Source: Streptomyces sp. HD (GTDB lineage Bacteria > Actinomycetota > Actinomycetes > Streptomycetales > Streptomycetaceae). From it: a stretch of DNA of 64,000 bases. The position numbers and the translations under genes were made by a program. Where the stretch lies: contig NZ_JAQMYP010000006.1 of NCBI RefSeq assembly GCF_028369295.1, positions 62,001 through 126,000 on the forward strand, given 5' to 3'. The first letter of the stretch is position 1. The number at the start of each line of letters is the position of its first letter. This document shows positions 27,234-35,117 of the stretch, piece after piece. The notes beneath the pieces were generated by a model that saw only the letters and a list, made by a program, of their open reading frames with translations, was not told the origin of the DNA and searched no databases.

Positions 27234-28469
27234 CTACTGGCCCAGCGGGGTGGGCGGTGTGGGCGTGGTGTCCAGCACGGGCTTGGCCGGGAGCGGCGCG
27301 TGTGCGGGCGTGGCCCGCTCCTTCGTCAGGGCGCCCGCGATCCTGCGGGCCAGGAGGGGGTCGGCCGGCAGGGAGTGAGCGGCGAACCAGCGAGCGGCCG
27401 AGGGGTCGGGGGACGGTTCGACGAACTCGGCGCCCGCGTAGTCGTCGAGCGGCGGGTCGTAGACGTATCCGGCGACCACGCCGTGGTTCACCAGGCGTTC
27501 GAGGAGGGTGTCGCGGTCGTGCACCAGGAGCGGCACCCGGAACAGGGACGGCGGGCCGTCGCCGGGCTGGTCGCGCAGTGCCGGGGAGGCCCAGGTGGTG
27601 CCGGACAGCAGGGAGACACCGGTCCTGCGCCGGGCCAGGTCGCCGTCGATGAGGGACATCCGCAGCCCCAACTGCCCCCGGACCATGGCCCCGTGGCGGG
27701 AGCGGAAGCCGTGCAGGTCGACCCGTACCCAGGGCTCGTAGGCGGTCAGGCTCGGCGCCTTGCGTGCAGTGCCGGCGAGGCGGGGTGCGTGCAGGGCCAT
27801 GCGGAAGTCGTCTCGTTCCAGCAGGCCCAGGCGCTGCATGGTGCGCCACACCGGGCGGACCAGGTGGAGGGTGCGTACGGTGGAGCGGGCCAGTGGGCGC
27901 AGGGTGGTGGACAGGTCGTCGCGCAGTCGGCGCGGCGTCAGCAGGTCGTCGCGCAGCAGCTCCAGCTCCCGCCGGGTGCGCGCGTCGTCCACGGCGAGGA
28001 AGCCGCCGGCCATCGCCGCGACGTGCTTGGAGAGGCTGAACGCCGCCGCTCGTCCGAAGGTGCCGATCGGCTGTCCGTCCACGTGCGTGCCGATGGCGTG
28101 CGCCGCGTCCTCGATCAGCGGGATCCCCAACGCGTCGCAGCGGCGGCGCAGTTCGACGACGCGGTCGGGCAGGCCGTACAGGTTCGTGGTCAGGACGGCG
28201 TCCACGTTGCGCCAGGTGGACTCCGGTACGGCGGCCGGGTCGATGTTGCCGTCCCACCGGGACACGGGGGCTTGGACGGGGCGCAGTCCGGCCGCGAGGA
28301 CGACGAAGAGGATCACGTCGTCGTTCACCGGGGACATCAGCACCCGTGCGCCCGGCCGGCACCAGCGCCGCAGCGCCAGGTACAGGGCGAGTCGGGCCGA
28401 GGGCGTGTAGACGCATTCGCGTCCGATGCGCCGTGTCATCATCGCGGCGAGCCGCGATCCGTACGGCAT
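27234..28469 (-). CDS. DegT/DnrJ/EryC1-family PLP aminotransferase
   Basis: PLP enzyme of 411 residues of the sugar-aminotransferase superfamily. It has DAAHAIG (121-127) and the Schiff-base lysine context FSLSKH (Lys148), plus SPVNDDVILFVVLAAGLRPV in place of the usual PxxTF segment. The C-terminal half is divergent and the last 30 residues are Pro/Thr-rich. I chose ATG 28469, which has AGAGG 5 nt upstream. It lies downstream of a BcsL-like acyltransferase gene on the same strand (152-nt gap), suggesting a joint role in glycan or cell-surface decoration. It is divergent enough that a non-sugar substrate is possible. Confidence 0.85.
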   Translation of the reverse strand: MPYGSRLAAMMTRRIGRECVYTPSARLALYLALRRWCRPGARVLMSPVNDDVILFVVLAAGLRPVQAPVSRWDGNIDPAAVPESTWRNVDAVLTTNLYGLPDRVVELRRRCDALGIPLIEDAAHAIGTHVDGQPIGTFGRAAAFSLSKHVAAMAGGFLAVDDARTRRELELLRDDLLTPRRLRDDLSTTLRPLARSTVRTLHLVRPVWRTMQRLGLLERDDFRMALHAPRLAGTARKAPSLTAYEPWVRVDLHGFRSRHGAMVRGQLGLRMSLIDGDLARRRTGVSLLSGTTWASPALRDQPGDGPPSLFRVPLLVHDRDTLLERLVNHGVVAGYVYDPPLDDYAGAEFVEPSPDPSAARWFAAHSLPADPLLARRIAGALTKERATPAHAPLPAKPVLDTTPTPPTPLGQ

Positions 28470-28525
28470 GGTCACCTCTTCCGTGGAAGCGTCCGTAGAA
28501 GGTCGCGAGGCGGGCGGTGCGGCTT

Positions 28526-28621: not shown

Positions 28622-29737
28622 TCAGCGGGCGCGGGCCCCCACACCCGGCGGGTGGGTGCGCAGGGTGCCGACGGTCTTCAGCAGGCGGTCGGCGGGCTCA
28701 CGCAGCCTGGGGTGGGCCAGGACCGTGTTCCGCAGGCCGCGCACCGGTCTGCGCCACATGCGGTGGGCCGCCGCCACCGGGTGCGGCCGGGCCGCGAACC
28801 CTTCGGCGACACGCAGTTCACGGGTCTTGAGCCAGTCCTTGTACTCCTTCTCGCCGCGCCCCATGTCCATCAGCGTCACGCCGTCCCGGCCCGCGGCCTC
28901 CGCCATCCTCAGGTGCATCATCAGGCCGGGCGAGTAGTAGCCGAACTCGGGGTCGTACGCCGTGAACCAGGCCGCGAACACCGAGCGCGACCGCGGCCCG
29001 AAGTGCGCGGCGACCGGCCGGTCACCGGCGTAGACGACGGACAGGATGCCGGTGAAGTACTCCTCGCGGACCTGGAAGAAGTGCTCCACCAGATCGACGA
29101 TCCAGGGTCTGGAGAACCGGTCCATGCGCCCCGTCCTGCGGTACTGGGCGGACTTCCAGCGCATGAGGGTGCGCAGCACACGCGGGTCGCGCTCGTCGTA
29201 CACGAACCGCACCTCGCCGGCGTCCCGGCCCAGTCGGCGCTCCTTCTTCAGCGTCGTCTTGGCCAGCCCCGGGTAGGTGGCGCGCAGCCACTCCGGGTAG
29301 CCGCCCTCGCCGGGCTTCAGGTCGAGCACGGGCGAGGCGAACGTGCCCGTGACGTACGGCCCGAACGGCTGCTGTTCCTCGACGAGGTGGTCGAACTCGA
29401 AGACGGACAGCCCGCAGGCCCGCAGCAGCTGCCGGGTGTCCCAGGTGACGCCCGGCCGGTGCACCAGGGCCTGGCAGTCGGAGAGCCCCAAGCCGATGGC
29501 GCGGCCGACACCGTAGGCGTTGCGCTCGTACGGGAAGAAGCCGACGGCCTCCCCGTTCTCGTGCAGCACCGCCACCCGGGCCCCACCGCGGTACCTGCCC
29601 ACGCCCCTCGTGAACTCCGGCGACAGAAAGGGGTTGGCGTAGTCGGGCGACTCGTCCATCGCCCGGTGCCACGCCCGGCGCAGCGACTCGCTCAGCTCCT
29701 CGGGTCTGTGAATCGTGATGGCGCTAGTGGATCGCAT
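28622..29737 (-). CDS. BcsL/CelD-like GNAT acyltransferase
   Basis: GNAT-fold protein of 371 residues resembling the BcsL/CelD and FemAB-like group seen in polysaccharide loci. Recognisable parts are NPFLSPEFTRGVGRYRGGARVAVL, the paired strands FVYDERDPRVLRTLMRWKSAQYRRTGR and VYAGDRPVAAHFGPRS, and YYSPGLMMHLRMAEAA with MDMGRGEKEYKDWLK. That last motif is typical of the family's C-terminal GNAT domain. The substrate is unknown. The start is ATG 29737. It precedes the DegT-family gene on the same strand. Confidence 0.85.
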   Translation of the reverse strand: MRSTSAITIHRPEELSESLRRAWHRAMDESPDYANPFLSPEFTRGVGRYRGGARVAVLHENGEAVGFFPYERNAYGVGRAIGLGLSDCQALVHRPGVTWDTRQLLRACGLSVFEFDHLVEEQQPFGPYVTGTFASPVLDLKPGEGGYPEWLRATYPGLAKTTLKKERRLGRDAGEVRFVYDERDPRVLRTLMRWKSAQYRRTGRMDRFSRPWIVDLVEHFFQVREEYFTGILSVVYAGDRPVAAHFGPRSRSVFAAWFTAYDPEFGYYSPGLMMHLRMAEAAGRDGVTLMDMGRGEKEYKDWLKTRELRVAEGFAARPHPVAAAHRMWRRPVRGLRNTVLAHPRLREPADRLLKTVGTLRTHPPGVGARAR

Positions 29738-29977: not shown

Positions 29978-30742
29978 TCAGCGGACGGCGACGACGACAT
30001 GGCTGGCGCCGTACTGCCAGACGACCCCGGCATGCCCGAACCCCGCCCGCCACAGCAGCCGTTCGTGTGCGGACACGGACAGCCGCGCCGCGCAGTCGGT
30101 CCCGGTGACGGGCTCCCGGCGCCGCCGTTCGGCGAGGAGGTCGGCCAGCTCGGGGTCCTCTGCGACCGCCGTCCACCAGGAGTCCCAGTCCTCGTGCGCC
30201 AGGGCGTGCCGGCGCTCGGCGTGCCGGCGCCCCACCCACCCGGCGAGTTCGGCGAGCGCGGTGTCGTCGTGCGGGAAGTGGTCGCCGTTGACGAGGACAC
30301 CGCCGGGCCGCAGCAGTGCCGCGAGCTGCCGGTAGGTGCGGTGCAGGGCGTCCGGGCTCAGATAGTGCAGGGCAGTCGTGGACACGGCCGCGTCCAGCGG
30401 GCGGTCGAGGCGAAGGGCGTGCGTCCAACCCTCCTCGCCGATGACGACGTCGACGTAGCGGGCGGCGTCGGCGTGGTGGGTGCGGGCCAGCTCCAAGAGC
30501 AGGGGGTCGCGGTCCACGGCAACGATGTCGGCGTCCGGCAGCCGACGCACCAGCCGCGCCGCGAGCGATCCGGGGCCACAGCCGAGATCCACGACGAGCG
30601 GCCTGGCCGACCGGCCGGTCACGGCCCGCTCCACCACGTCGGCGATCACCGTGAACCGCTCCTCACGGTCCACGGCGTACCGCTGCTGCTGGCGTTCCCA
30701 GCGCTCCACCCAGCGCTCCGCCGTTGCCAGACTCAGCCCCAT
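29978..30742 (-). CDS. class I SAM methyltransferase behind a Zur-like box
   Basis: SAM-dependent methyltransferase of 254 residues. Motif I is VVDLGCGPGSLAARLV, the acidic end of strand 2 is IVAVDRDP, and post-motifs AAVSTTALHYLSPDALHRTYRQLAALLRPGGVLVNGDHF complete the Rossmann fold. The C-terminal part is Arg/Trp-rich. Substrate unknown. It follows the three-PLP-enzyme operon on the same strand after 93 nt. That gap carries its own dyad (30801-30815) and a candidate -10 hexamer TAGGGT, so it may be transcribed separately. Related methyltransferases occur in many unrelated contexts. Confidence 0.88.
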   Translation of the reverse strand: MGLSLATAERWVERWERQQQRYAVDREERFTVIADVVERAVTGRSARPLVVDLGCGPGSLAARLVRRLPDADIVAVDRDPLLLELARTHHADAARYVDVVIGEEGWTHALRLDRPLDAAVSTTALHYLSPDALHRTYRQLAALLRPGGVLVNGDHFPHDDTALAELAGWVGRRHAERRHALAHEDWDSWWTAVAEDPELADLLAERRRREPVTGTDCAARLSVSAHERLLWRAGFGHAGVVWQYGASHVVVAVR

Positions 30743-30800
30743 CCGGTCGTGCCACCTTGCCGTCTCGCACCTGTTCCCCTGCCGCCGCCGACCCTACAGG

Positions 30801-30815
30801 TGGAAACGGTTCCCA
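30801..30815. promoter_or_regulatory. Zur/Fur-family-like 7-1-7 box
   Basis: TGGAAACGGTTCCCA: arms TGGAAAC and GTTCCCA around a single G, complementary at 6 of 7 positions, in the 7-1-7 layout of actinobacterial Zur boxes (TGAAAATGATTTTCA). It sits 59 nt upstream of the methyltransferase ATG. A second dyad, CATTAGCTCTAATG (30814-30827), abuts it. Confidence 0.55.
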
Positions 30816-30835
30816 TTAGCTCTAATGGCGGCACC

Positions 30836-32053
30836 TCACCCGAGCGCGGCGAGGACGGTCAGCAGCCGGTCGATCTCCTCGGCGGTGTTGTGGATGTGCA
30901 GGCTCACCCGCACCGAGCCGGTCCGCTCCCCCGCCCCGCCCTGGCAGTGGTGGTCGGAGCGGACCATGAAGCCGTGGCTGAAAAGGATGAAGCCCAGGTC
31001 GGCGGAGTCGACGGCGCGATGACGGAAAGTCACGATGCCCTGGCGCCGCTGCACGGACGAGTCGGCGGCCAGGCTGCTCCGACAGCCGAGGATCTCGTAG
31101 GCGTCCAGGTGGCGCAGGGCGTCGGTGAGCCGGGCCGCCAGGGCGACCGTCCACTGCTCGATCCGGTCGGTACCGACGGTGTCGAGCCAGTCCAGGGCGG
31201 CGGCGAGGGAAGCGATACCGACCGTGTTGGGGGTGCCGGACCAGCCGCCCGGCGCGAACTCCGGCCCGCGCGCCTGGCGGGCCCAGACGGCTCCGGTGCC
31301 GGGCAGGGCCATGGCCTTGTGCCCGGAGAAGACGAGGAAGTCGACGTCCAGGTCGGCCACGGACACCGGTAGATGACCGACGCTCTGGGCGGCGTCCAGA
31401 CAGATGACCGCGTCCGGACCGACGGCCCGGCGGATGCGGTGGATGTTCATGTTGCCGCCGTACACGTGGTGGACGTGGGTGACGGCGACGAACCGGGTTC
31501 GCTCACCGGCGAGTTCGGCGAGCGCGATGTGGTCGTAGTCGCCGGACGACCGCTGGTACGGCATCGGCCGGACCCGGATGTGCACGCCCTGCCGGGCCAG
31601 GTCCCGTTGGGCCTCCAGCCAGGGCGCGATGTTGGCCTCGTGGTCGGCGACCGGGACGACGATCTCGTCGCCGTCGGCGAGGAGCCCGGGCAGCCAGTCA
31701 CGGGCGACGGTGCGCAGGCCCTCGGTGGTGCCGCTGGTGAAGTGCACGGCCGAGCGCTCCGGTGCGGGGTCGGCCAGGAACCCCTTCACCCGGTCGCGGG
31801 CCTGCTCGACCAGGGCCGTGGTCCGGTTGGCCCAGGGGTAGGTGCCGCGTCCGGCGTTGGCGTTGGTCGTGGTGAGGTAGGCGTGCACGGCGTCCAGTAC
31901 GGCCTGCGGCTTCTGGGCGGTGGCCGCGCTGTCCAGGTAGGCCAGTTCCGGGTGCCCGGTGATGATCGGGAACTGGGCGCGCAGGGTGCGCTGCCACTCC
32001 CTCAACTCATCGATGAGACAAGGGACGTGGGCGTCCGTCCTGGGTACGGTCAT
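30836..32053 (-). CDS. class V aminotransferase / cysteine desulfurase-like (SufS type)
   Basis: PLP enzyme of 405 residues of the SufS/CsdA and isopenicillin-N-epimerase group. It has YLDSAATAQKP (39-49), FTSGTTEGLRTVA, DHEANIAPW, the PLP aspartate and glutamine in CLDAAQSVGH, and the Schiff-base Lys246 in VFSGHKAMALPGTGAVW. Near the end VRSDHHCQGG aligns with the SufS active-site loop (R-x-GHHC), keeping a candidate persulfide Cys370. It begins 4 nt after the stop of the SbnA-rhodanese fusion and is the last gene of that coupled operon. A sulfur-donating role is attractive beside a rhodanese domain but is inference. There is no SufU or Fe-S gene nearby. Confidence 0.87.
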   Translation of the reverse strand: MTVPRTDAHVPCLIDELREWQRTLRAQFPIITGHPELAYLDSAATAQKPQAVLDAVHAYLTTTNANAGRGTYPWANRTTALVEQARDRVKGFLADPAPERSAVHFTSGTTEGLRTVARDWLPGLLADGDEIVVPVADHEANIAPWLEAQRDLARQGVHIRVRPMPYQRSSGDYDHIALAELAGERTRFVAVTHVHHVYGGNMNIHRIRRAVGPDAVICLDAAQSVGHLPVSVADLDVDFLVFSGHKAMALPGTGAVWARQARGPEFAPGGWSGTPNTVGIASLAAALDWLDTVGTDRIEQWTVALAARLTDALRHLDAYEILGCRSSLAADSSVQRRQGIVTFRHRAVDSADLGFILFSHGFMVRSDHHCQGGAGERTGSVRVSLHIHNTAEEIDRLLTVLAALG

Positions 32054-32057
32054 GGGC

Positions 32058-33425
32058 TCAGTCCCGTACGAGGGGTGCGCCGGCGTCGCGCCAGGCGATG
32101 ATGCCGCCGGTCAGGCTGCGGACGTCCGGGTGGCCCATCCGGGTCAGCAGGGCGGCGTAGCGGGCGGACTTCTCGCCGACCGGGCAGGCCAGCAGGACCG
32201 GGCGGTTGCGGCTGAACGGCAGACCGCCGTGGAGGAGTTCCTCGAAGAGCTCGTCGACGATGTTGAGCGAGCCGTCGATGTGCAGGGCGGCGTAGGCGTA
32301 GGGGCTGCGCAGGTCCACGACGAGCGGTTCTCCGGTGCCGATCCACGCCTGGGCGTCCGCGACGCCGATGGCCGGTGCCGTGCGGATCTCGGCGTCCGGC
32401 AGGTCTGCCGGGGAGTTCCTGCGGCGCGGGCCGCCGAAGAGGTCGGGGCGCCGTCGGCGGACGTAGCTGAGATAGCTCTCGACGCGGTCGCAGACGATGA
32501 AGACCGCTGACTGGCGTGCCGTCAGTTCCGTTTCGACGGCCCGTAGTTGGCGTACGGCACCGAAGTAGGCGGCCCCTCCGGTGGGCCCGGCCAGGATGCC
32601 GCAGCGGCGGTTGAGGGTCAGCATCCCCTCGATGGCCTCGTCGGCGCTCACCGACTCGATGGTGTCGTAGGTGCCGGGGTCGAACAGGCCCACCTCGTGC
32701 GCCTCGTCGATGGTGCGGATGCCGGGGATGAAGTCGGACTTGGCGGCGACCAGGCCGACGACCCGTACGGCGGGGTCGTGTTCGCGCAGGGCGCGGGCGA
32801 CTCCGGTGGAGGAGCCGGCGGTGCCGACGCATGCGATGAACCAGTCGGGCGCCCGGCCGTCCAGGTCCTTGACTATCTCCGGTCCGGTGCCGGTGAAGTG
32901 GGCCTCGGTGTTGCGCGGGTTGAAGTACTGGTCGGTGTGCAGATACGTGCTGCCGGGCTCGGCGAGCGTGCGGTGGAAGAGGGTGAGCGGGTCGTCGGTG
33001 GCGGTCGGGTCCAGGCACTCGCTCTGGCCGGGCAGTTCCTCGATCTCCGCGCCGAGCAGCAGGAGCAGGTCCTTGATCTCCGGGATGCGCATCCGGTTGG
33101 TGACACTCTTGAAGGACAGGCCGTGCATACCCGCGAGGACGGCCAGGGCCTTGGCGGTGTTGCCGCTCGACAGCTCGACGACCTGGCCGCGTTCTCCGGC
33201 CGAGGCGGATGACGACCCTGCGGATGCGGCTCCGGATGCAGATGCTGCTGTGGCTGTCAGGTGCGGTCGGGCCATGTTCCAGGCGGCCCGGTCCTTCACC
33301 GAACCGAAGGGGTTGAGCAGTTCCAGCTTGGCGTACAGGTCGATGTGTCCGAGGCCGTGCACGGCCGGATCGATGCGTACCAGCGGTGTGTTGCCGATGG
33401 CCTCGGTGATGCTGTCGTACCTCAC
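32058..33425 (-). CDS. SbnA-like PLP beta-replacement enzyme fused to rhodanese
   Basis: Fusion protein of 455 residues. Residues 1-340 are a fold-type II (cysteine synthase/SbnA) enzyme: GNTPLVRID, Schiff-base Lys44 in NPFGSVKDRA, carboxylate-binding SSGNTAK (86-92) and the phosphate loop VGTAGSSTG. An Ala/Ser-rich low-complexity insert (57-77) sits just before the SSGNT loop. Residues 355-455 are a rhodanese domain with active loop CPVGEKS (Cys414). SbnA makes N-(2-amino-2-carboxyethyl)-glutamate from phosphoserine and glutamate, while cysteine synthases use sulfide; the attached rhodanese hints at sulfur chemistry. The GTG start at 33425 overlaps the upstream stop (GTGA); the frame above that is shadow. 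Confidence 0.9.
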   Translation of the reverse strand: MRYDSITEAIGNTPLVRIDPAVHGLGHIDLYAKLELLNPFGSVKDRAAWNMARPHLTATAASASGAASAGSSSASAGERGQVVELSSGNTAKALAVLAGMHGLSFKSVTNRMRIPEIKDLLLLLGAEIEELPGQSECLDPTATDDPLTLFHRTLAEPGSTYLHTDQYFNPRNTEAHFTGTGPEIVKDLDGRAPDWFIACVGTAGSSTGVARALREHDPAVRVVGLVAAKSDFIPGIRTIDEAHEVGLFDPGTYDTIESVSADEAIEGMLTLNRRCGILAGPTGGAAYFGAVRQLRAVETELTARQSAVFIVCDRVESYLSYVRRRRPDLFGGPRRRNSPADLPDAEIRTAPAIGVADAQAWIGTGEPLVVDLRSPYAYAALHIDGSLNIVDELFEELLHGGLPFSRNRPVLLACPVGEKSARYAALLTRMGHPDVRSLTGGIIAWRDAGAPLVRD

Positions 33426-34918
33426 TGCGCTCCCCCCACGGGTGTGGTCGGCCAGTACTGGTCGTCCAGGCACCAGCGCCAGGTGCCGCCCTCCTGCCAG
33501 GCGGCGACCTTGCGCGCGACGGGCTGGTGCTGGGCACGGGTGGCGTGGAAGTCCATGCAGTATCCGGCCGTGTTGGCGAAGGCCAACAGATCGCCCGGTT
33601 CGGGGCGGTGGGGCAGGAAGACCGTACGGCGGGTGATCAGGTCGGACTCCAGGCACCGGCTGCCGAAGAGATGGACGGCGACCGGTTCGGCCCCGGCGAC
33701 CGGGCCGGTTCCCGGACCTGTGACCGCGCCTGCCGTGTCCCGGGGGATGACGAGGGGGTCCATCAGCACGCCGTGTTCCTCCAGCGCCACGTCGTCGGCC
33801 TTGGCCGCGAGCCGTACGGCAAGCGGGCCGCCGGTCTCCTGGTCGCGGACCTCCAGCACCTTGCCCAGCGTCACTCCGCACTGGTCGAGGAGTGCTCGGC
33901 CGGGTTCGGTGTGCAGGTCGTAGAGGTGCTCCAGGAGCAGCGCGGCCAGAGGGCGGCCGTCCATGGACGTGGCCGGGTGCGAGAGCAGTTCGTCGAGGTA
34001 GCGGGCTCCGGCGACCGGACGGTGAGCGGGGTACAGGCCGAGCGTGCCGCGCAGGGTGCCGGCCTCGCTGCGCAGTCCGTAGCCGTGACCGCCGTAGGTC
34101 AGGGGCGGGCGGGTGCCCAGTACGGCCTCGGTGAGTTCGGTCGTGTACCGGTCCCACTGTCCGCCGTCGGCAAGGTAGTCGACGCCGAATCCGCCGCCGA
34201 TGTCGACGGCCCGGGGCCTGAGCCCCCGTCGGCGGCACTCCTCCAGCATGCGAAGACAGCCTTCGAGCGCCGTAGCCTTCTCGGTGAGGCTCGTCGTGTC
34301 CAGGTGGTAGGCCACGCCGAGCAGGTCGACCACGTCGGTGTGCCGCTCGACGGCCTCCAGCAGGGGGCCCGACTCCCCCGCCGCGGTGCCGAATCGGCTG
34401 CGTCTGCTCAGTACCCGTACGCCGGACGTCTCGAAGCCCGACAGCCGCAGCAGGATGCGAGCCCTGGGCAGCGTGTGTTTGCGTATCAGCGTGGCGAGTT
34501 GGTCCAGTTCGCCGCGCGTGTCCAGGCTGACGGTGACCGAGGTCCGGGCCGCCAGCCACAGGAACTCCGGGTTCTTCGGGCCGGTGGCGGTGATCCGGTC
34601 AGGGGTGAAGCCGGCGCCCAGGGCGTGTTGCAGTTCCCCCAGCGATGCGACGTCCACGCCGGCGTCGGTGGCGGCGAGCCGCCGCAGCAGGGCGCTGGAG
34701 CGGTTGGCCTTGTGGGCGAAGAACACCTGGCCGGCCAGGTGGTGCTTGCCGTACACGGAGCGGAACTGCCGGAGATTGTCGACGAGTTGGTCCGGCACGA
34801 CCAGGTTCAGCGGAGACCCGAGACCGTCGGTGAGCGTGTGCAGCAGATCCGGGGCGTCCAGTAACGAGCGCAGCCGCGCTGCCAGCCGCGGTGCGAGATA
34901 CAGGGGCTGCCCGCCCAT
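33422..34918 (-). CDS. Y4yA-type fold-III PLP enzyme (amino acid decarboxylase-like)
   Basis: Protein of 498 residues related to diaminopimelate/ornithine decarboxylases, closest in my judgement to the Y4yA family of unknown function. PLP-binding Lys70 is in FFAHKANRS, the phosphate loop is VDIGGGFGVDY, and near the C-terminus GSRCLESD keeps the C-x-x-x-D pattern used across the dimer interface. It leads the operon and overlaps the SbnA-like gene by 4 nt. ATG 34918 has GGGAGGG about 8 nt upstream. In staphyloferrin B synthesis SbnA works with the decarboxylase SbnH, a loose parallel. No SbnB or NIS synthetase is present here, so another product is likely. Confidence 0.88.
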   Translation of the reverse strand: MGGQPLYLAPRLAARLRSLLDAPDLLHTLTDGLGSPLNLVVPDQLVDNLRQFRSVYGKHHLAGQVFFAHKANRSSALLRRLAATDAGVDVASLGELQHALGAGFTPDRITATGPKNPEFLWLAARTSVTVSLDTRGELDQLATLIRKHTLPRARILLRLSGFETSGVRVLSRRSRFGTAAGESGPLLEAVERHTDVVDLLGVAYHLDTTSLTEKATALEGCLRMLEECRRRGLRPRAVDIGGGFGVDYLADGGQWDRYTTELTEAVLGTRPPLTYGGHGYGLRSEAGTLRGTLGLYPAHRPVAGARYLDELLSHPATSMDGRPLAALLLEHLYDLHTEPGRALLDQCGVTLGKVLEVRDQETGGPLAVRLAAKADDVALEEHGVLMDPLVIPRDTAGAVTGPGTGPVAGAEPVAVHLFGSRCLESDLITRRTVFLPHRPEPGDLLAFANTAGYCMDFHATRAQHQPVARKVAAWQEGGTWRWCLDDQYWPTTPVGGAQ

Positions 34919-35117
34919 GCACGGACCCTCCCAGCGCTTCGGGCCCGACATCCCGGGCGCAGCCGACCACTCCCCGCGGTTCGCCGTATAGCTGCTTCCC
35001 TTCCCCCGCGGTGTTTACGCCCCGTACCTGCACTCCTGGGCGGTACGTGAACAGGTGGGCCGAAAATCACCGCTGTCCGACGACCGGCCGCGCACGGGGT
35101 CCGGAGGCGCTCATTCC

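Follow-up and report, generated by a model that had tools for sequence, protein, structure and literature searches.

A Streptomyces gene cassette with a PALP–rhodanese fusion and a Zur-box-like operator, a candidate pathway to a zinc chelator

Introduction

What might be made by three pyridoxal phosphate (PLP) enzymes, one of them with a built-in rhodanese, whose genes are coupled end to end? The question is raised by a 64,000-nt stretch of Streptomyces sp. HD (contig NZ_JAQMYP010000006.1, positions 62,001 to 126,000; here called the window), the minus strand of which carries, in this order, genes for a Y4yA-type decarboxylase (Y), an SbnA/CysM-like enzyme with a fused rhodanese (S) and an enzyme resembling SufS (D) (Table 1). 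An earlier note on this DNA proposed a route in which an amino acid is built, receives sulfur or nitrogen at its beta carbon and is then decarboxylated or epimerized; it omitted a linked methyltransferase gene (M), the operator that precedes M and the link to zinc. Taking these into account, we suggest, with a probability of roughly 0.6, that the four-gene cassette produces a small molecule that chelates metal, most likely a zincophore of the aminopolycarboxylate type, that is used or boosted when zinc is scarce. Papers are cited below by PMC identifier, for the portions of their text that were available.

Table 1. Features of the cassette in the window (positions are those of the window).
Feature	Positions	Strand	Details	Evidence
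Y, Y4yA-type fold-III PLP decarboxylase	33422-34918	-	K81, C433 (509-aa numbering)	Pfam, NCBIfam, alignment, structure matches
S, PALP (SbnA/CysM/AMA-synthase-like) fused to rhodanese	32058-33425	-		Pfam, NCBIfam, alignment, structure
Rhodanese domain of S	32085-32357	-	residues 357-447, CPVGEKS loop, C414	Pfam, alignment
D, SufS-like class V PLP enzyme	30836-32053	-	K246, C370	Pfam, NCBIfam, alignment
M, class I S-adenosylmethionine methyltransferase, usual fourth cassette gene	29978-30742	-		Pfam, NCBIfam, locus survey
Zur-box-like operator between D and M, 56 bp before M	30799-30817	.	TGGGAACCGTTTCCA (minus-strand reading); window copy AATGGGAACCGTTTCCACC	
Conserved element upstream of Y	34984-35022	-	GGGCGTAA-(~23 nt)-TATACGG	

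Results

A Zur-box-like operator suggests a link to zinc

A scan of genome contigs gave 126 confirmed relatives of Y, the best 80 of which were taken as loci, with genes called by a simple GC-frame gene caller. The loci are related, and L001-L030 partly duplicate L031-L110, so that the counts given here are not independent events. An expectation-maximization (EM) search of the gaps between D and M yielded a palindrome, aaTGGAAACcGTTTCCAtt, that is present in about 56 of the 58 non-redundant gaps; the resulting matrix gives sites of at least 15 bits in 72 of 80 gaps, the remaining eight scoring lower and two of these negatively. Because the matrix was trained on D-M gaps its scores there are circular, and the independent tests are the published Zur core and znuA. 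The Zur box of S. coelicolor, obtained by chromatin immunoprecipitation on arrays (ChIP-chip), reads tGaNNatSatNNtCa, and a znuA motif computed for actinobacteria reads taaTGaNAANNNTTNtCANta (PMC5472717). The test core that we used, TGNNAANNNTTNNCA, consists of the capital letters of the published motif. It is present in the window and, for the 80 loci, in 53 of the 75 M upstreams; the four short loci that hold M are without it. Across the 1,619,149 bases of the loci the core has 74 matches, 68 of which adjoin M, Y or zinc-type genes (M 53, ArsR 9, znuA 5, Y 4 and an anchored-repeat surface gene 1, some counted twice). Six permuted cores gave 0-3 matches each, none before M; permuted palindromic matrices gave 0-2 matches, with one exception that gave 45.

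The same matrix finds genes of zinc homeostasis outside the D-M gap. At the start of the ZnuA-ZnuC-ZnuB-Fur operon in the strain's own genome it scores 22.3 bits, the second-best site in 9 kb reaching 9.7. A pattern search of this genome returned two matches, one of them the D-M box; the znuA box deviates from the search pattern at two places and was picked up by the matrix alone. Within the loci, the matrix also flags znuA, CobW/ZigA, Fur and ArsR genes. An ABC-3 (ZnuB-type) permease, Pfam-checked in every case, occurs in 11 of the 80 loci, where about 0.5 locus would be expected by chance, as derived from 84 matches in 31 genomes; several of the Micromonospora loci concerned have one common arrangement. 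ZnuA is found in nine loci, and in L058 and L110 znuA and Y are divergent, with boxes in the region between them. In the window, M is the predicted target of Zur. A scan for sigma-70 promoters and terminators found nothing.

The trio is conserved as a unit

Y, S and D form one operon, in which a 4-nt overlap joins Y to S and a 4-nt gap separates S from D. The three enzyme types and their 4-nt junctions, as described in the earlier note, are borne out by the coordinates, by Pfam and NCBIfam matches and by the cysteine of the HHC motif. Pfam assigns Orn_Arg_deC_N to Y, PALP (residues 6-313) and Rhodanese (357-447) to S, and Aminotran_5 to D. The leading NCBIfam profiles all score under their curated cut-offs: LysA (TIGR01048) with Y at 107.7 bits (cut-off 297.9), cysKM and CysM with S at 162 and 158 bits, and SufS (TIGR01979) with D at 263 bits (475.1); S also matches the SbnA equivalog (TIGR03945) at 128.1 bits (349.95). 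The longest open reading frame of Y begins at 34951, and the consensus of its relatives favors the ATG at 34918.

The trio, whose conservation as a unit the earlier note had made a touchstone, is contiguous in 79 of the 80 loci, and C414 of the fused rhodanese is present in 109 of 109 aligned S sequences. The sole exception, L078, has lost S and D, and its Y, cut near residue 462, reads in frame into M; this natural deletion with a Y-M fusion (L078 10001-12100) adjoins znu-type genes. M was called in 75 of the 80 loci, directly after D in 69, behind inserted genes in three and upstream of Y in three. Searches with tblastn add an M in L096, the fusion in L078 and a partial M in L048; neither method found M in L089 or L098.

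Besides M, no other gene family is common to most of the 80 loci. The gene directly upstream of Y belongs to 50 families among 78 loci and the gene directly downstream to 43 families among 80, and flanks are shared with the window only by its close relatives. Because the neighboring families differ so widely between loci, the cassette looks like a movable unit. Two window genes considered as pathway members, GNAT-like (28622-29737) and DegT-like (27234-28475), were rejected, being present in just 11 other loci. A Y homologue of at least 59% identity is found in 60 of 297 Streptomycetaceae genomes, own genome included and with one Y split; this survey counts Y alone, as most flanks are not long enough to include D and M. 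Cassette loci come also from Micromonospora, Actinoplanes and Paractinoplanes. Full support is given in trees to the branches that set apart cassette Y and cassette S (21 rows each); with 5.26 changes per column that of S is very long, which makes the placement of outside S relatives unreliable.

Catalytic residues are retained throughout the cassette

For the alignments we kept S of at least 420 aa, Y of 430-700 aa and D of at least 370 aa, which dropped short or misread gene calls (e.g. L002). The rows include near-duplicates: 42 (S), 60 (D) and 71 (Y) are left at 90% identity, and the 110 Y rows represent 96 distinct sequences across the last 450 aa; the D rows include one paralogue, from L090. 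Y keeps K81, C433, E435 and D437 in 108 of 108 rows, the last three of which we take to be the C-x-E-x-D catalytic motif of fold-III decarboxylases. K44, the ELSSGNT loop and C414 in its CPVGEKS loop are kept in all 109 rows of S; on the strength of C414, a chance fusion or annotation artefact was rejected. In D, K246, H138, R382 and C370, the last being the cysteine of the HHC motif, are kept in 80 of 80 rows; going by SufS, these are presumably the PLP lysine, the histidine, the substrate arginine and the mobile-loop cysteine. Judged by these residues, all three enzymes look active. The structure search with Y gave diaminopimelate decarboxylase and D-Orn/Lys decarboxylase as best matches, and of the two fates that the earlier note had allowed for the product, decarboxylation is likely and epimerization less so, given the decarboxylase lysine and cysteine in every Y row.

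The closest full-length structural match of S is a chelator-forming enzyme

In a Foldseek search, the AlphaFold2 model of S, which has a predicted local distance difference test (pLDDT) score of 77, best matches aspergillomarasmine A (AMA) synthase (8h4h/8h4q). In the VIA comparison the alignment with these chains runs the full length of the model and covers 414-416 residues (Z 29.5-29.7, root-mean-square deviation 20.6-20.7), and that with the other chains listed covers just 280-307; SbnA is absent among the 50 rows listed there. Sequence gives another ranking: a profile search with S scores SbnA (5d84/5d87) at about 96 bits, below CysM at 143 bits, and 8h4h is absent among the 60 chains listed in searches with S. 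The window's S has an Ala/Ser-rich insertion of about 16 residues at residues ~58-80 (the usual length of S is 439 aa), within which model residues 63-78 have pLDDT below 50.

By Pfam, S has the domain make-up of the AMA-synthase/Fda4 type, a PALP domain with a C-terminal rhodanese-like domain, and we presume that the C-terminal domain of 8h4h is a rhodanese as well. AMA reportedly sequesters zinc (PMC8319579). The nearest solved relative of the fusion makes a metal chelator, which fits the Zur box and weakens the argument for sulfur. Fusarium Fda4, a PLP enzyme with a rhodanese-like domain, joins O-phosphoserine to L-alanine through a C-N bond, and AMA synthase joins O-phosphoserine to L-aspartate (PMC12751119); SbnA joins it to glutamate (PMC12414870). 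Since the PALP–rhodanese fusion is thus known from a C-N-forming enzyme, the rhodanese need not imply sulfur addition, one of the two options in the earlier note; such a reading of the domain is superseded by the Fda4 precedent together with the full-length match to AMA synthase. By analogy with these enzymes, S may form a C-N bond. The likeness has bounds: AMA synthase and Fda4 are fungal, identity to S over the structural alignment is 24%, and the available text of PMC12751119 describes no decarboxylase or SufS-like partner.

Y4yA homologues elsewhere stand in metallophore-type loci

In rhizobia, according to the earlier note, Y4yA and its SbnA-like partner occur together. The pair does recur elsewhere, and it is not free-standing: on pNGR234a of NGR234 the order is Y4yA, cysteine synthase, octopine/nopaline-type dehydrogenase, IucA/IucC and a major facilitator superfamily (MFS) transporter, a metallophore context. 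The NGR234 decarboxylase is 29% identical to Y and likewise adjoins a cysteine-synthase-like gene, whose 1011 nt leave no room for a fused rhodanese; the dehydrogenase, IucA/IucC and MFS set this operon apart from the cassette, as does its want of D and M. Aureimonas and Agrobacterium vitis have ornithine cyclodeaminase (OCD), Y4yA, cysteine synthase, a multidrug and toxin extrusion (MATE) transporter and an iron-type ATP-binding cassette (ABC) importer; on pMAH135 of M. avium, metal regulators lie close to cysteine synthase, cyclodeaminase, Y4yA and MATE; and in Sulfitobacter sbnA, a flavin/nicotinamide adenine dinucleotide (FAD/NAD) enzyme and Y4yA stand together. From this gene content we infer that Y4yA loci elsewhere are metallophore-type. 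Plasmids of the Mycobacterium avium complex (L111, L112) hold Y4yA, MATE and cysteine-synthase-like genes near metal-responsive regulators, and across lineages the dehydrogenase slot beside Y4yA is filled variously by an FAD/NAD enzyme, an octopine-type dehydrogenase or an OCD (L113, L114, L134, L135).

A second Streptomycetaceae clade of Y4yA (L122-L133) has OCD-like, Y4yA, PALP and MATE-like genes in 12 of 12 loci; a Pfam check covered L122, where the first gene is TauD-like. These operons resemble metallophore synthesis of the ethylenediaminedisuccinate (EDDS) or diaminopropionate kind and may be called EDDS-like as a label by gene content; they share a PALP enzyme and a Y4yA homologue with the cassette. 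Unlike them, the cassette is without OCD and MATE and adds D and M; their PALP enzyme is too short for a rhodanese fusion, identities are 31-34% for Y and 27-30% for S, and the two fall in separate clades. A strong Zur-type site (18.5 bits) lies upstream in one of the 12, L128.

Two characterized systems are among the closest. EDDS is a Zur-controlled zincophore that was found through Zur boxes (PMC4993170; PMC9252823). The likeness of the cassette to the [S,S]-EDDS system of Amycolatopsis japonicum, whose genes are known here by description, lies in this link to Zur, for EDDS as given in the papers. With staphyloferrin B biosynthesis (SbnA/SbnB/SbnH) the cassette shares an SbnA-type PALP enzyme adjoining a fold-III decarboxylase; it differs in having no SbnB-type dehydrogenase or nonribosomal-peptide-synthetase-independent siderophore (NIS) synthetase, and in the rhodanese of S. 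In SbnA/SbnB-type diaminopropionate or EDDS-like operons an OCD/opine-type or FAD dehydrogenase stands beside the PALP enzyme. In the cassette this slot is empty, and D and M are found instead. D keeps the fold, PLP lysine, catalytic cysteine, histidine and arginine of SufS, and differs from it in lacking about 21 residues after the PLP lysine and in reading xDxHCQ where SufS has xGHHC.

The literature, in which subscription papers were mostly outside coverage, yielded no description of this gene set, in line with the earlier note, and none of rhodanese, cysteine synthase and metallophore together. Four papers that name Y4yA deal, judging by title, with type III secretion, symbiosis signals and effectors in rhizobia.

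Variant loci

In L081, L086 and L098, two ATP-grasp-type genes and an MFS transporter form an insert that lies either between D and M or behind D (14033-17944 in L081), and L079 has one ATP-grasp gene and an MFS. The first ATP-grasp protein matches dapdiamide A synthase (DdaF) at 210 bits (cut-off 840), and the second gives a weak match to an ATP-grasp protein. In some lineages, then, the product of the cassette is probably conjugated and exported. An ATP-grasp gene acting in trans was sought in the strain's own genome and set aside, the search giving partial matches of 25-34% identity and no evidence for it.

Two further genes recur near the cassette, often right after M: one for a His-rich protein (about 100 aa; e.g. 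L070 14992-15291), present in 23 of the 80 loci, and one for an ArsR/SmtB regulator (e.g. L065 11119-11430), present in 13 and with its own Zur-type box in eight or nine of these.

Discussion

A route to a metal chelator can be outlined from these assignments. S would form an alpha-aminoacrylate from O-phosphoserine or O-acetylserine, as its family and structural match suggest, and couple it to the amine of a second amino acid in the manner of SbnA, Fda4 and AMA synthase. Y, with its catalytic residues in place, would take the carboxyl group off the carbon that stems from serine, the step of SbnH in the staphyloferrin B pathway, and leave a diamine-type chelator arm. More speculatively, D might take the place of the OCD, opine-type or FAD dehydrogenase of other Y4yA loci and serve as a lyase or to mobilize sulfur, and M might methylate the product. 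Zinc-loaded Zur would repress at least M here and, in some relatives, also the Y operon, as the computed operators suggest. The cassette is probably a zincophore pathway, one not described so far, and is related to SbnA and EDDS systems yet distinct from them in having no dehydrogenase. We advance more tentatively a wider proposal: that this is a class of zincophore built without nonribosomal peptide synthetase, NIS synthetase or dehydrogenase, in which a persulfide relay from desulfurase to rhodanese may put sulfur on the chelator, and whose four genes have spread together in Streptomycetaceae and Micromonosporaceae.

Several observations weigh against the chelator assignment. Only a minority of loci have zinc uptake genes close to the cassette, and the window has none. 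There, as in most loci, the Zur box that would mark a Zur-regulon promoter precedes M only and not the trio; no Zur box was found upstream of Y in the window (best matrix score 1.6 bits), and control of the trio by zinc is here indirect at best. Of the Y upstreams that could be used, 14 out of 108 score above 15 bits (7 out of 78 for the genome-contig loci), and an EM search of these upstreams returned a conserved element unlike the Zur box. Many Streptomyces loci have this non-Zur element before Y, its first half, GGGCGTAA, being present in 56 loci. A scan for sigma-70 promoters and terminators found nothing. Six of the 74 core matches lie elsewhere, four before one unrelated family, one before the partial M of L048 and one unassigned. 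On the structural side, there is a tie in Z over the PALP part between AMA synthase (29.7) and CysM (29.2), the deviation of AMA synthase from S across both domains is 20.7, and 8h4h is absent among the 45 matches of the rhodanese domain in a search by sequence (E up to 1). The core cassette, finally, has no dehydrogenase or synthetase and no exporter or importer, MFS and ATP-grasp ligases being confined to the four variants.

The alternative that survives best is a true sulfur relay, which we consider doubtful, if less so than the other two. D would pass a persulfide from cysteine to C414 of the rhodanese, S would put the sulfur on the beta carbon of the aminoacrylate, and decarboxylation by Y and methylation by M would give a thiol or thioether, possibly a zinc ligand, thiolates being good ligands of zinc. 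Sulfur chemistry in the cassette is possible because the cysteines of D (C370, 80 of 80) and of the rhodanese (C414, 109 of 109) are both invariant, which suggests a real transfer of sulfur, a step that a pure C-N route would not require; D, lacking a SufS segment and having a partner with a fused rhodanese, may moreover have a private acceptor. Such a relay would be futile if it made cysteine from cysteine, and would need an acceptor other than serine; the PALP–rhodanese enzyme Fda4 forms a C-N bond (PMC12751119), and no sulfur product is known.

It is unlikely that the product is a secreted antibiotic, signal or peptide building block with no role in metal uptake and under zinc control for other reasons. 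On this reading the ATP-grasp and MFS inserts of L081, L086, L098 and L079, with their DdaF match, would serve to make dapdiamide-type dipeptides, but the core cassette is without ligases or transporters, and the proximity of znu genes and the Zur boxes suit a metal role better.

We think still less of a zinc-sparing backup of housekeeping sulfur metabolism, in which a cysteine synthase and a desulfurase-rhodanese pair replace zinc-dependent partners such as SufU during zinc starvation. The Zur-type operator, the SufS-like and CysM-like folds and the presence in the S. coelicolor Zur regulon of paralogues of ribosomal proteins that lack cysteine and release zinc (PMC5472717) speak for it, but it leaves the decarboxylase and methyltransferase unexplained, sits poorly with the patchy occurrence of the cassette and with an own genome holding two SufS genes and one cysteine synthase over cut-off (several more below), and ignores the siderophore-type genes that partner Y4yA elsewhere.

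In S. coelicolor, Zur-controlled zinc acquisition has been described through ZnuABC-type importers and coelibactin (PMC5472717). If the cassette does make a zinc chelator, it would represent a widespread unannotated pathway, its Y gene being present in 60 of 297 Streptomycetaceae genomes, and would suggest a class of function for the Y4yA family. It would also extend the marasmin-type PALP–rhodanese enzymes from fungi to bacteria, and might provide new biodegradable zinc chelators of the AMA/EDDS kind, of interest as inhibitors of metallo-beta-lactamases and as substitutes for ethylenediaminetetraacetate (EDTA).

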